DNA of 52,316 nucleotides from Oscillospiraceae bacterium (lineage in GTDB: Bacteria > Bacillota > Clostridia > Oscillospirales > Oscillospiraceae), in assembly GCA_017473225.1 (NCBI GenBank), contig JAFUMG010000009.1:1-52316 (forward strand), written 5' to 3'. Numbering within the stretch: the stretch's first letter is position 1; each line of letters begins with the position of its first letter. The notes beneath the pieces were generated by a model. That model was not told the DNA's origin. It was given only the letters and a program-made list of their open reading frames with translations, and did no database searches. Positions 18,066 through 51,684 of this stretch are shown in pieces. Both the position numbers and the translations under genes were made by a program.

Positions 18066-18070
18066 TTTTA

Positions 18071-18135
18071 ATGCAAAATTCAAAATGCAAAATGCAGAAT
18101 CATTAATTTTGCATTTTGCATTCAGCATTCTGCAT
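18071..18135. repeat. Repeat E, short copy
   Basis: Left arm of ATGCAAAAT-type units and right arm ATTTTGCATTTTGCATTCAGC with almost no core. It sits 5 bases after the ATPase stop and just before the MocR gene's ribosome site. Same arms as at 22403, 28526, 41109 and 45844. Confidence 0.85.
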
Positions 18136-18155
18136 TTTTGTAAGGAGGACGCCCC

Positions 18156-22400: not shown

Positions 22401-22402
22401 AA

Positions 22403-22473
22403 ATGCATAATGCAAAATTATATAAAACAGTGCACTTTTCGCACACACCAATTCTGCATTTTGAATTTTGCGT
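22403..22473. repeat. Repeat E, copy 2, short core
   Basis: Left arm ATGCATAATGCAAAATT and right arm AATTCTGCATTTTGAATTTTG around a GTGCACTTTTCGCACACACC hairpin. That hairpin is the inverse of one half of the longer core at 28526. Confidence 0.75.
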
Positions 22474-22493
22474 TTCCAAAAAACGGAGGTTAT

Positions 22494-28479: not shown

Positions 28480-28492
28480 GCGGCAGCTTCAG

Positions 28493-28665
28493 GTCGTAGT
28501 GTATCGCACTGCCTGCGGCCTCACAATGCAAAATTCAAAATGCAAAATGCAGAATGATGGTGTGCGCGAAGCGCACGATTAAAATTATTTCCGCAGGAAA
28601 TACCACAATTTCGCATTTTGCATTCAGCATTCTGCATTTCGCGCCGCTACACGATAAACTGCAAT
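28493..28665. repeat. Repeat E copy 3 inside the shared border pair
   Basis: Outer borders CGTAGTGTATCGCAC and ACGATAAACTGCAATT. Inside, arms of ATGCAAAATTC/GCAGAAT type at 28526 and GCATTTTGCATTCAGC to 28637 enclose a core with GTGCGCGAAGCGCAC and TTTCCGCAGGAAA hairpins. The gap to 28740 holds nothing else except AGGAGG. Confidence 0.88.
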
Positions 28666-28739
28666 TCCCCAGCCCGTGAATAAATCTCCCAGCTCTGGCA
28701 AACAATACCTGCGTCAAATCATTTGAGGAGGTTTATTCT

Positions 28740-38990: not shown

Positions 38991-39023
38991 GTGTTTAAGT
39001 ATACCATATGGAGAGAGAAGCTT

Positions 39024-41108
39024 ATGCTGGAATTATTGGCACCCGCCGGATCTATGGAAGCCCTCCGCGCCGCCGTGCAGAACGGCGCCAACGCGGTATA
39101 TCTGGGCTGCGGCATGTTTAACGCCCGCCAGAGCGCGAAGAATTTTACACCCCAGACCCTGGTGGAGGCAGTGAAATACTGCCACGTCCGGGGCGTGGCG
39201 GTGCATCTGACCCTGAATACCCTGGTCTCCGACCGGGAGATGAAGGAGCTGACGGAGCTGATCCGTGTCGCCGCCGAGGCCGACGTGGACGCCTTCATCG
39301 TCCAGGACCTGGGTGTCATTCAGCTGTGCCGCCAGGTGGCGCCCAAGGTACCCATCCATGGCTCCACCCAGATGACGGTCCATTCCCTGCCCGGCGTGCT
39401 GTTCTGCGCGGCCCTGGGTATGAGCCGGGTGGTCCTGAGCCGGGAACTGAGCCGGGAGGAGATCCGGGATATCTGCGCCAATTCCCCCATCGAGATCGAG
39501 GTCTTCGGCCACGGCGCATTGTGCATGTGCTACTCCGGCCAGTGCTACCTGTCCGCTGCCATCGGTGGCCGGTCCGGCAACCGGGGCCACTGCGCCCAGC
39601 CCTGCCGCCAGAGCTACGGCTACGGCCGCTGGGAGAACAAATACCCCCTGAGCCTGAAGGACAACTGCCTGGTGGACTATGTCAAAGAGCTGGAGGAGAT
39701 GGGCGTCGCTTCCCTGAAGCTGGAGGGCCGCATGAAGCGGGCGGAATATGTGGCCACCGTCACCGCCGTCTACCGCCGGGCCATCGACTCCGGCGTCGTC
39801 ACCGACTCCATGATGGACGCCCTCCACATGGCCTTCAACCGGGAAGGCTTTACCGACGACTATTACCAGGGCCGGCCCGGACCCCAGATGTTCGGCGTCC
39901 GCAAGGACGAGCGGGAGAATCCCAAGTGGCTCCAGGCCGCCCGGCAGTCCTACGAAAACGCGGAAAATCCCCTGGTGGATATCAAATTCCGGGCAGTTGT
40001 CGCCGCCGGCGGCAGCTCCCTGACCGTCACCGACCCCGACGGACGCAGCTGCGAGGTCGCGGGCCCCGTGCCGGAGCAGGCCATCAACGTGGCACTGGAG
40101 CCGGCGGCCCTGGCCCAGCGGCTCAGCAAGACCGGCGGCACCCCCTACCGCTGCGTGGAGGTCCGCACCCAGGTGGAGCCGGGCCTGACCATGTCCGCCG
40201 CCGCCATCAACGCCATGCGCCGGGACGCTCTGAACCGGCTCAGCGCCCTCCGGGCCCGGCGGGAGAAGCCCTCCCTGGGCAAGCCCGCCCGGATCCCCGA
40301 CCACACCGGCCACGCCGGAATGCCGGGCCTTTCCGTCCAGGTCTCCTCTCTGGATCAGATCACCCCCAAGCTGGTGAAGACGGAAACGGTGATGCTCTAC
40401 GTCCCCGTCCATGTGCTGCTGCAGGACTCCCAGCTGTGCATCGACCTGCTGCGCCGGGGCCGGATCGCCGCGGTGCTCCCCCGGATCGTCCATGACGACG
40501 AGCTGCCCAAGCTGAAAAAGCGGCTGCAGAAGCTCCAGGAGCTGGGGCTGAAGGAGGTCCTGGTGGGCAATGTGGGCCTGCTGATGGTGGCCCGGGAGCT
40601 GGGGCTGAAGATCCGGGGCGACTTCGGCCTGAATGTCTACAATTCCGCCGCGGTGCAGTTTCTCAGCAAGCTGAATCTGGCGTCCGTGACGCTGAGCTTT
40701 GAGATGACCATGCCCCAGATCCGGGACCTGAGCAAGCTGGTCCCCTGCGAGATCCTGATCTACGGCCGGATGCCCCTGATGGTCATGGAGAACTGCCTGA
40801 TGCGAAACCGCACCGGCGAATGCTCCTGCTCCTCCGGCCCCGCCATGAAGCTCACCGACAAGACCGGCGCGGAATTCCCTGTCATCAAGGACGGCGATTC
40901 CTGCCGCAGCGTGCTGCTCAACGGCAAGAAGCTCAGCTGGCTGGACCGTCAGGAGGACCTGACGAAGATCGGCGTCTGGGCCACCCGGCTGTATTTCACC
41001 ACCGAAAGCGGCAAGGAAGTGGACCGGGTACTCTCCGAATATGTACATCCCAGCGCCTTCGACCCCGGCGCCTGCACCAGAGGACTGTACTTAAGAGGTG
41101 TTGAGTAA
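39024..41108 (+). CDS. U32-family protein with DUF3656, RlhA-like
   Basis: A 694-residue cytoplasmic protein. Residues 1-300 are the U32 core (ELLAPAGSMEALRAAVQNGANAVYLG, AFIVQDLGV, HGSTQMTVHS) with the Fe-S cysteine cluster GALCMCYSGQCYLSAAIGGR, RGHCAQPCRQSY and KDNCLVDYVKELEEMG. A DUF3656-type middle and C-terminal region follow, ending with further Cys in NRTGECSCSSG. E. coli RlhA, which hydroxylates C2501 of 23S rRNA, has this layout, so RNA hydroxylation is more likely than protease activity. Its stop codon touches the repeat E arm that carries the next gene. Confidence 0.88.
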   Translation: MLELLAPAGSMEALRAAVQNGANAVYLGCGMFNARQSAKNFTPQTLVEAVKYCHVRGVAVHLTLNTLVSDREMKELTELIRVAAEADVDAFIVQDLGVIQLCRQVAPKVPIHGSTQMTVHSLPGVLFCAALGMSRVVLSRELSREEIRDICANSPIEIEVFGHGALCMCYSGQCYLSAAIGGRSGNRGHCAQPCRQSYGYGRWENKYPLSLKDNCLVDYVKELEEMGVASLKLEGRMKRAEYVATVTAVYRRAIDSGVVTDSMMDALHMAFNREGFTDDYYQGRPGPQMFGVRKDERENPKWLQAARQSYENAENPLVDIKFRAVVAAGGSSLTVTDPDGRSCEVAGPVPEQAINVALEPAALAQRLSKTGGTPYRCVEVRTQVEPGLTMSAAAINAMRRDALNRLSALRARREKPSLGKPARIPDHTGHAGMPGLSVQVSSLDQITPKLVKTETVMLYVPVHVLLQDSQLCIDLLRRGRIAAVLPRIVHDDELPKLKKRLQKLQELGLKEVLVGNVGLLMVARELGLKIRGDFGLNVYNSAAVQFLSKLNLASVTLSFEMTMPQIRDLSKLVPCEILIYGRMPLMVMENCLMRNRTGECSCSSGPAMKLTDKTGAEFPVIKDGDSCRSVLLNGKKLSWLDRQEDLTKIGVWATRLYFTTESGKEVDRVLSEYVHPSAFDPGACTRGLYLRGVE

Positions 41109-41530
41109 ATGCAAAATGCAGAATGCAGAATGCAAAATGAGGATGCTGTACGGGAGAACGCGGCAGTCGACAAAAGTTTTGAGTTCGCTGTCAGGATCGT
41201 GAATCTGTATAAGTATCTGACTCACGAGCATAAAGAGTATATCCTCTCCAAGCAACTCCTCCGCTCCGGTACCAGTATTGGCGCCAATGTCGCAGAAGCC
41301 CAGTGGGGGCAGAGTAAGGCTGACTTCACAGCTAAAATGAATATTGCTCTGAAAGAAGCAAGCGAAACACATTATTGGCTAAAGCTGTTGTATAGAACAG
41401 ATTATCTGAGCAGACGGCAATATGAGAGCCTCCGTGCAGACGTACAGGAACTTCTGGGAATCCTTATGTCAATCTGCAAAACCGCAAGCACTTCAAAATA
41501 ATTTTGCCTTTTGCATTCAGCATTTTGCAT
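41109..41530 (+). mobile_element. Repeat E carrying a four-helix-bundle gene (candidate parent element)
   Basis: A 422-base unit. The left arm (41109-41138, built from ATGCAAAAT/GCAGAAT units) and right arm (41501-41530) are inverted repeats matching at about 27 of 30 positions. At 18071, 22403, 28526 and 45844 the same arms enclose only short hairpins; here they enclose a complete gene. This fits a mobile or formerly mobile element whose other copies lost their gene. No transposase-like protein is present. Confidence 0.7.
41130..41501 (+). CDS. Four-helix-bundle protein (S23/IVP, TIGR02436)
   Basis: A 123-residue (130 if started at 41109) basic, all-helical protein. The hallmark stretch DKSFEFAVRIVNLYKYL, SKQLLRSGTSIGANVAEAQ, FTAKMNIALKEASETHYWL and ELLGILMSICKTA matches the family found in 23S rRNA intervening sequences and related to the Avd protein of diversity-generating retroelements. 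Those proteins bind nucleic acid. Both candidate start codons lie in the repeat's left arm, so the arm supplies the translation start. Its GC content is clearly lower than that of the flanking genes, consistent with acquisition. Confidence 0.88.
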   Translation: MQNEDAVRENAAVDKSFEFAVRIVNLYKYLTHEHKEYILSKQLLRSGTSIGANVAEAQWGQSKADFTAKMNIALKEASETHYWLKLLYRTDYLSRRQYESLRADVQELLGILMSICKTASTSK

Positions 41531-41554
41531 TTCACGCACATGAAAGGAAAACGT

Positions 41555-42130
41555 ATGCAGTTAATCTTAGCCTCCGCCTCGCCGCGGCGGCGGGAGCTGA
41601 TGGGCTTGTTCCGTCAGCCCTTCCTGGTCCGGGCGGCGGATATCGATGAAACCATGGACCCGGCGGCGGACCCCTGGGCCGAAGTGGGCCGGGTCAGCCG
41701 GGCCAAGGCCATGGCCACCCCCCGGGAGGCGGATGACGTGGTCGTCGCTGCCGATACCATCGTGGTCTGCCAGGGCCGGGTGCTGGGCAAGCCCCACTCA
41801 GAGGAGGAAGCGGCGGCGATGCTGCGGCTGCTCTCCGGCCGGGACCACCAGGTGATGACCGGCATGACCGTCCTCCGGGGCGATGCCGCCGAGACAATTA
41901 CCGAGGTCACCGACGTCCACTTCCGGGACCTGTCGGACCGGGAGATCCGGGCCTATGTGGCCACCGGGGAGCCCATGGACAAGGCCGGCGCCTACGGCAT
42001 CCAGGGCGGCGGCGCCCTGTTCTGCACCCATATGGTGGGGGACTATTATAACGTGATGGGACTGCCGGTCTGCCGTCTGGGGCAGATGCTGCGAAAGACA
42101 GCCCCGGAATGGATGGGAGAAAATCTATGA
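41555..42130 (+). CDS. maf: Maf-type nucleotide pyrophosphatase
   Basis: A 191-residue cytoplasmic house-cleaning enzyme that hydrolyses non-canonical or excess nucleoside triphosphates (dTTP/UTP class). Motifs: LILASASPRRRELM at the N-terminus, VSRAKAMA, DDVVVAADTIVVCQGRVLGKP, SGRDHQVMTGM and GEPMDKAGAYGIQG. The start is 41555 with AAAGG upstream; the frame runs back into repeat E, which is not coding. It heads the maf-mreC-mreD-PBP2 cluster, an order also known in Bacillus, though mreB is absent here. Confidence 0.95.
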   Translation: MQLILASASPRRRELMGLFRQPFLVRAADIDETMDPAADPWAEVGRVSRAKAMATPREADDVVVAADTIVVCQGRVLGKPHSEEEAAAMLRLLSGRDHQVMTGMTVLRGDAAETITEVTDVHFRDLSDREIRAYVATGEPMDKAGAYGIQGGGALFCTHMVGDYYNVMGLPVCRLGQMLRKTAPEWMGENL

Positions 42131-45789: not shown

Positions 45790-45810
45790 ATCATGTCAAA
45801 GGATTTTAAA

Positions 45811-45982
45811 AATGTAGTTTGTCGCTCTGCCTACGGCATCGCAATGCAAAATTCAAAATGCAAAATGCAAAATAATGGTGTGCGCAAAGCGCACAATTGA
45901 AATGATTTCCGCAGGAAATACCTCAATTTTGCATTTTGCATTCAGCATTCTGCATTTCGTGCAACAGCACGATAAGCTACAA
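45811..45982. repeat. Repeat E copy 5 inside the shared border pair
   Basis: Outer borders ATGTAGTTTGTCGC and ACGATAAGCTACAATTT. The inner arms (45844, ATGCAAAATTC units; to 45955, GCATTCAGCATTCTGC) enclose the same GTGTGCGC...GCGCAC and TTTCCGCAGGAAA core as 28526. Confidence 0.88.
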
Positions 45983-46008
45983 TTTCCAACCGCTTTAAGG
46001 AGATCCCA

Positions 46009-46413
46009 ATGAATAAGAAAATCCTCTTCGCCCTGTGGGGCGGTCTTTTCGCCCTGTGCGCGGGTCTGGGCTTCATCCCGGAGCCCACCGGCTTCCTGAA
46101 ATTCCTGCTGGCCGCCCTTTCCGTCGGCTTCTTCGTCCCCGGCTTCCTGCTGCTGCGGGAATGCGGCAAAACCGGCGACCGGCACACCCTTCAGCTGGTC
46201 CGGAACCTGTCCGCCTTGTCCCTGGCCGTCACGCTGGCGCTGCTGATCGCCAATTTTCTGTCCGTCCTGGGCAGCGAGACCCTGGGCAGCATCCTCTACT
46301 ATATGCTGGTCATCGTCTCGTCCCCCATGGTTTGCGGCCAGTATTGGGTGCTGAGCCTGTTTTTATGGGCCTGCCTGATGATCGCCAGCGGGAAGGCGCT
46401 GAAAAAGAAATAA
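46009..46413 (+). CDS. Small membrane protein with four helices
   Basis: A 134-residue protein that is almost entirely four hydrophobic segments (about 5-22, 28-50, 65-90 and 93-125) with a short charged link (RECGKTGDRHTLQLVRN) after the second and a Lys tail. Family not recognised. AAGGAG lies upstream and a strong hairpin downstream. It stands alone between two repeats. Confidence 0.75.
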   Translation: MNKKILFALWGGLFALCAGLGFIPEPTGFLKFLLAALSVGFFVPGFLLLRECGKTGDRHTLQLVRNLSALSLAVTLALLIANFLSVLGSETLGSILYYMLVIVSSPMVCGQYWVLSLFLWACLMIASGKALKKK

Positions 46414-46785: not shown

Positions 46786-46849
46786 TTTTACATTTTGCAT
46801 TCAGCATTCAGCATTTCCCGCCACGGCGGGCGAAAATCCAATTTCCCTC

Positions 46850-51527: not shown

Positions 51528-51655
51528 GTGATGAATAACGAATAATGAATGATGAAAAATGAATAATTGTGGTATCCGCTCCGCGGATGATTTTAATTTG
51601 TGCCGAAGGCACACCTTCATTATTCATTCTTCAATATTCATTCTTCATTTTTCAT
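51528..51655. repeat. Repeat F element between dnaK and dnaJ
   Basis: Arms of AATAATGAATGATGAA type on the left and TTCATTATTCATTC type on the right. The core (GTGGTATCCGC, GATTTTAATTTGTGCC, GGCACACC) is, when inverted, recognisably the repeat E core from 28526 and 45844. The arms differ while the core is shared. Confidence 0.8.
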
Positions 51656-51684
51656 TCGCCCCGACAGGGGCACGATACGCCAAT

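Follow-up and report, generated by a model that had tools for sequence, protein, structure and literature searches.

The window analysed here, a 52,316-nt stretch of DNA from an Oscillospiraceae bacterium, raises the question of what a gene of the S23/23S rRNA intervening sequence protein (IVP) family is doing between two inverted arrays of a 7-base repeat at a site flanked by protein genes. The gene (41109..41501, + strand) encodes 130 amino acids and scored 111.6 bits against TIGR02436 (cut-off 24) and 102.2 bits against PF05635 (cut-off 33.8), in agreement with the family assigned to it in the first-pass annotation. Its nearest solved structure is 2rld (E 4.7e-43), and both this structure and a second solved relative, 2gsc, comprise 5 chains; the latter, from Xanthomonas, is a homopentamer according to the available text of PMC4990558, which describes no known function for the family. 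PADLOC gave no match to a defence family. The left arm (41107..41139, + strand) is made up of 4–5 tandem heptamers AATGCAA/AATGCAG and, as had been pointed out previously, includes the start codon. The right arm (41502..41532, − strand) carries the inverted heptamers and lies directly after the stop codon. Together the arms form an inverted repeat round the gene with an ungapped score of 23, bounding a box of roughly 430 bp whose ends are inverted tandem heptamers (ATGCARA). The upstream host gene, of the peptidase U32 family (38991..41108, + strand), ends in a stop codon that overlaps the start of the left arm, and a Maf family gene (41555..42130, + strand) follows downstream. The element thus sits between the U32 peptidase and Maf genes and not inside an rRNA gene, and no transposase is present in it, the S23 frame filling the whole space between the arms.

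Folding of the whole element as RNA (41105..41534, + strand) gave a predicted energy of −133.5 kcal/mol (z −3.35), the arms forming an interrupted stem that closes round the reading frame. Terminal inverted repeats that form a predicted stem round a frame, here within 430 nt, are also the plan of 23S rRNA intervening sequences (IVSs). The IVS of Coxiella, as described in the available text of PMC4990558, is 428 nt long and has a 28-bp terminal inverted repeat, the length of four heptamers, with an S23 frame in the loop. Tandem GACAGAT heptamers whose number varies between strains stand just before its S23 start codon, one strain has a deletion in the S23 frame, RNase III excises the IVS in vitro, and the authors think that the protein is not made in vivo (PMC4990558). 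The window element resembles this IVS in its size of about 430 nt, its terminal inverted repeat, the frame in the loop and the heptamers before the S23 start. It differs in lying between protein genes with no rRNA, in carrying ATGCARA and not GACAGAT, and in having dispersed empty relatives. The earlier proposal to look for the same arms in 23S IVSs was borne out as regards tandem heptamers and a 28-bp stem but not as regards the heptamer itself. In a crude check with eight 23S oligonucleotides, none of 181 S23 loci had two of the eight, as would be expected of an S23 gene inside a 23S gene.

The arrangement was surveyed using a strict rule that called for a 7-period score of at least 8 on both sides of the gene and an inverted-match score of at least 12. 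TIGR02436 genes were found in 41 of the 61 genomes of the window's genus. These gave 94 matches, 85 of which were measured, 9 being left out as partial or near contig ends, and 31 of the 85 loci were strict (31 of 84 after removal of one duplicate). Outside the genus, 80 named loci, 16 viral contigs and 10 plasmid loci (of 30 plasmid records) resulted in 101 usable loci; the survey as a whole dropped three duplicates and three loci at the edges of contigs. Both the 7-base period on either side and the inverted match were present at 72 of these 101 loci, which is not an unbiased frequency because the 80 named loci were retrieved as top matches to an alignment made up mainly of armed copies and the sample accordingly favours their relatives. 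A period of 7 was observed on at least one side at 93 of the 101 loci, against 0–6 loci for the other periods from 4 to 11, and shifted windows in the same loci, used as a control, yielded no strict call (0/256). When S23 and neighbouring ORFs were compared like for like from the ORF ends, 59 of 84 S23 ORFs were strict (51 of 73 without the viral contigs) as opposed to 9 of 271 neighbours; 10 of 96 loci had no ORF that fitted, and 24 of 74 S23 genes of the genus were strict when measured in this way.

With taxa as labelled, strict loci came from Bacillota, Bacteroidota, Ignavibacteriota, KSB1, Campylobacterota, Verrucomicrobiota, Planctomycetota, Pseudomonadota, Bdellovibrionota and Lentisphaerota, as well as from one Treponema plasmid and 7 of 8 Cyanobacteriota plasmids. 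The single Fusobacteriota locus and the single Acidobacteriota locus failed the strict rule. S23 genes in matched arms are thus found across many phyla, and the pattern is far wider than the window. The first-pass annotation had left it to be seen whether TIGR02436 genes of other genomes lie between such arms; as 72 of 101 non-genus loci do, its link between the gene family and the arms stands. Bacillota and Bacteroidota were intermingled in a tree built from 80 S23 proteins (12 and 17 changes, of which 3 and 4 are forced by starred branches), but with so few columns the tree does no more than hint at transfer.

The arms follow a common syntax. Their median length is 32 nt (middle half 29–34, n = 206), equal to 4–5 heptamers. 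Among 103 strict loci there were 59 consensus heptamers, which share the frame NNN-A-R-T-K (A 0.88, A/G 0.95, T 0.93, T/G 0.90). Agreement between left and right heptamers was 0.86 within a locus compared with 0.56 for mismatched loci, and 92 of the 103 strict loci lay above the 95th percentile of mismatched arm pairs. Heptamer similarity increased with S23 protein identity (Mantel r = 0.27, 0 of 2000 permutations), a correlation that partly reflects orthologous sites, which the closest pairs often occupy. Within single genomes, none of the 9 pairs of strict S23 genes, from seven genomes of the genus, shared a consensus word.

Orthologous junctions were then compared between species. At the U32–maf junction, 28 of the best 30 of 60 matches were readable and included 2 S23 elements, namely that of the window and one in genome G042 with ATGCTGA arms, 4 heptamer-bounded inserts without S23, 2 one-sided arrays, 11 bare junctions (17–62 bp) and 9 with other contents. 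The purH–purD junction (29 readable among the best 30 of 52 matches) held 8 S23 elements, whose arms represent three heptamer types or more, along with 3 empty hairpins of heptamers, 5 bare sites (24–45 bp) and 13 with other contents; among the copies seen there were an empty GATACAA copy in G019 and a broken S23 copy with arms in G003. At a Bacteroides junction, where all 30 of the best 30 of 59 matches could be read, 1 full element, 9 bare sites and 18 with other contents were accompanied by 2 copies that had lost different internal parts of S23 and kept both arms. Since junctions are bare, filled, or deleted with the arms in place, the occupancy of a site varies from species to species and the arms can persist after loss of the gene. 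Of the presence/absence comparison that had been proposed, variation between species was therefore obtained, but no two strains were found between which an element had jumped. No target duplication was found at the three junctions, whose empty sites are too diverged to align by eye. Within the genus, closely related class I S23 copies occupy orthologous sites, and recent movement of class I is consequently not demonstrated.

Other genes in palindromic repeats were also seen at the U32–maf junction. At L099 (2131-2484) and L103 a DUF559 gene (PF04480, 109 bits in L099) is enclosed by the inverted repeats AAGCCTTCCCC...GGGGAAGGCTT, so that here too, as with S23, a gene lies within a palindrome. 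At L120 (2297-2578) a GIY-YIG gene (PF01541, 62.6 bits) lies inside GTCATTGCGAGC...GCTCGCAATGAC repeats, and gene-less repeats similar to the latter occur at L115 and L096.

The arms of the window element are not confined to it. The 11-mer ATGCAAAATGC was found, with at most 1 mismatch, at 25 sites in the window against 1.08 expected (maximum 4 in 100 shuffles), and 75 exact copies were counted in the organism's own genome assembly (1.78 Mb, 79% complete) against 0 for the reversed control, so that the further genome copies the first-pass annotation had called for do exist. The four other window sites to which it had assigned the same arms were all recovered. These are an empty copy with ATGCAAA arms and a 5-nt loop (18070..18136), a degenerate empty copy whose ends were placed approximately by eye (22402..22476), and two empty copies with two-hairpin cores of 51 nt (28525..28638) and 52 nt (45843..45956). 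Two features absent from that annotation were added, a lone right arm (46788..46819, ends approximate, by eye) and an empty inverted array of a second heptamer family, ATGAATA (51533..51656). More copies of the ATGAATA family occur on contigs C20, C28 and C62 of the same genome.

A conserved two-hairpin core of 51–52 nt is thus present in 2 of the 4 empty copies of the window, and one of the others has just the 5-nt loop. In 16 aligned empties of the genome, changes on both sides were seen at 4 of the 6 pairs of one core hairpin and 3 of the 6 of the other, and at none of the 31 arm pairs; over the whole empty structure 7 pairs had changed on both sides compared with 4.0 in shuffles (19 of 500 as high). 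As the core is a conserved, separate two-hairpin unit, the copies at 28525 and 45843 were rejected as deleted S23 copies. The view that empties are deleted derivatives of an S23-bearing form accordingly fails for these two, and it holds elsewhere, the Bacteroides site having real derivatives with both arms. These two window empties are surrounded, over 28480-28680 and 45790-46010, by further inverted sequence that matches imperfectly (TGTAGTTTGTCG...CGATAAGCTACA), which gives the impression of one repeat nested in another. Judged by eye, a longer flank is shared by about twelve of the 16 aligned empties and not by the rest.

Period-7 segments numbered 64 in a 396-kb sample of the genome, as opposed to 0–13 for periods 5, 6, 8, 9 and 10. 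The sample contained 28 inverted array pairs, two of which share a right arm with another, and 1 of the 28 holds S23. Under the strict rule applied from ORF ends, 2 of 316 ORFs lay between matched arms, the window S23 being one. The genome's second S23 gene is inside the sample, but no array pair was called there; it passed the strict rule from its domain ends and failed from its ORF ends.

Different architectures were apparent at other S23 loci of the genus. By eye, L030, L045, L073, L080, L082, L084, L091 and others have an array upstream only, in which 7-nt linkers alternate with small hairpins in inverted order and the linker word differs per locus. At L039, L057, L058, L063 and L068, inverted tandem heptamers follow a tRNA gene and terminator, and the loop between the arms seems, again by eye, to repeat part of the locus's own terminator, like a terminator/antiterminator switch. 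Four pairs of proteins from upstream-array S23 loci of the genus were 92–96% identical without homology downstream. Their shared block stops at or just past the 3' end of S23, which suggests that upstream-array units move or recombine. On Anabaena and Nostoc plasmids (L242, L243) S23 lies between cas2 and cas1 with heptamers adjoining, and on a Planktothrix plasmid (L248) it lies between drmD and pglX with AATCCCC/AATCGTA heptamers.

The relationship between dispersed arrays and a cognate S23 was evaluated for four heptamer families in the 61 genomes. GATACAA gave 8–36 matches in each of the 5 genomes with S23 in such arms; at least 8 matches were present in 5 of 5 cognate genomes compared with 3 of 56 others, 50 of which had zero, a comparison in which kinship was not removed. 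For ATGCANA, the genomes with related S23 arms gave 34, 73 and 13 matches, apart from G001 with 0, and a further 13–31 matches each were present in G018, G030, G037, G038 and G044, where no S23 was measured in such arms. For ATTAGGA, the two genomes with an intact S23 in such arms had 1 and 0 matches, G003 had 3 (two of them at the broken S23) and three others had 1 each. ATTGACA gave 7, 5 and 1 matches where S23 has such arms, 11–24 in G017, G019 and G033, 113 in G032, which has an S23 fragment only, with other arms, and 125 in G005, in which S23 was not detected. Absence of S23 is a soft observation as the genomes are incomplete. GATACAA obeys the rule that many arrays need a cognate S23, ATGCANA gives a mixed picture, and ATTAGGA and ATTGACA break the rule; three of the four families do not clearly track a cognate S23 and the result is a mixed one.

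Short inverted-end units at many intergenic places, with a rarer coding form, are familiar as MITEs and REPINs, and the small dispersed repeats of Nostoc are a heptameric repeat class. The arrays described here differ from MITEs and REPINs in that their arms are variable heptamer arrays with no fixed end and S23 is no known transposase. Heptamer repeats of cyanobacteria, Xanthomonas and Beggiatoaceae are tandem and mostly intergenic, one Xanthomonas having 70 convergent pairs (PMC4692102, PMC4679880), and those of Xanthomonas and Nostoc occupy stable regions, generally not with mobile elements (PMC4692102). In the available text of these papers no protein family is tied to such heptamers, whereas here S23 genes are, including those on eight cyanobacterial plasmids. 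The S23 family, rRNA IVSs as selfish elements and the heptamers of one IVS (PMC4990558) were known before, and IVP genes are described in cas loci (PMC3936711, in part) and in rRNA insertions of CPR bacteria (PMC11270868, in part). A search of open-licence papers returned no paper linking S23 genes in general with heptamer arrays, and likewise no rule of S23 in matched arms outside rRNA, no such arm length or syntax and no tie between S23 and dispersed repeats.

These loci are best read as one family of IVS-type elements, often outside rRNA. On balance we lean towards the view that the S23 gene and its arms constitute such an element between protein genes and that S23 binds its own array and keeps, processes or helps copy the element. 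In the transcript the arms could pair into an interrupted stem of approximately 30 pairs with the S23 frame inside it. The rRNA IVS is arranged likewise and has its stem cut by RNase III, and similar processing may take place outside rRNA. The array bound by S23 could be RNA or DNA and would take up roughly one pentamer on each arm. A private heptamer per element could let several coexist. If the element moves as a unit, the route would probably involve host or replication functions, its sole frame being S23 and no transposase being present. A more far-reaching form is put forward tentatively, as possible rather than probable. A pentameric, nuclease-free S23 might read a private 7-base code, one subunit per heptamer over 4–5 heptamers, and rRNA IVSs, cyanobacterial repeats and many intergenic hairpins might be its products, as minimal mobile elements of many phyla, each recognising only its own arms and copying or preserving them. 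Against the IVS-type reading, most S23 loci in the genus are not strict (31 of 84 are), and many have upstream arrays instead, by eye. Also counting against it are the three heptamer families that do not clearly track a cognate S23, the failure of the genome's second S23 gene when measured from its ORF ends, the absence of two-sided changes in the arms of the aligned empties, the view that the Coxiella S23 is not made in vivo, and the stable regions occupied by the Xanthomonas and Nostoc heptamers.

The heptamer arrays could alternatively belong to a regulatory RNA, in which they are a control or processing region of S23 (an attenuator or an RNase III site), immobile and selected for the function of S23. 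At other loci of the genus the arrays stand upstream of S23 next to a terminator-like hairpin, part of which is repeated by the loop in some, by eye, and the S23 genes between cas2 and cas1 on two plasmids, together with the two-sided changes in the two small core hairpins of the empties, also fit this explanation. We nevertheless regard it as unlikely, given that arms are present on both sides at 72 of 101 non-genus loci, that most arrays called in the genome sample are without S23 and that sites are often bare in relatives among the best 30 matches per junction.

The abundance of empties bears also on the idea that heptamer hairpins are independent, MITE-like repeats spread by other means in which S23 tends to land or survive. 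Heptamers can be plentiful without a detected cognate S23, as ATTGACA in G005 (125) and G032 (113), the aligned empties have a core of their own, and the U32–maf junction has DUF559 and GIY-YIG genes in palindromic repeats of other kinds. Such a passenger role is, however, hard to reconcile with S23 being bracketed in many phyla by element-specific heptamers, with the bracketing of 59 of 84 S23 ORFs as opposed to 9 of 271 neighbours, and with GATACAA arrays that track their S23, and we judge it rather improbable. Similarity between S23 and the Avd protein of diversity-generating retroelements, described previously (PMC10053308, available in part), would allow S23 to act as Avd does, with a reverse transcriptase in trans copying the heptamers. 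The relatedness to Avd claimed at the outset is real but distant and confined to sequence similarity, the window S23 scoring 17.8 bits against the Avd equivalog NF033474 (E 0.0031), below the cut-off of 80. Reverse transcriptase (PF00078) showed no positive link to S23, being present in 17 of the 41 genus genomes that have S23 and in 13 of the 20 others, and none was found in the organism's own genome, which is 79% complete. As reverse transcriptase does not track S23, a partner of this kind is disfavoured and copying by that route appears most improbable.

The IVS-type reading joins, by sequence alone, an orphan protein family, S23/IVP, and tandem heptamer repeats without a maker. The pattern has the look of a small mobile element of a kind that had been overlooked, and rRNA IVSs would then be one special case of something more general. 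S23 genes beside cas1 and cas2 or beside defence genes are by the same token suggested to be element insertions rather than immune genes.
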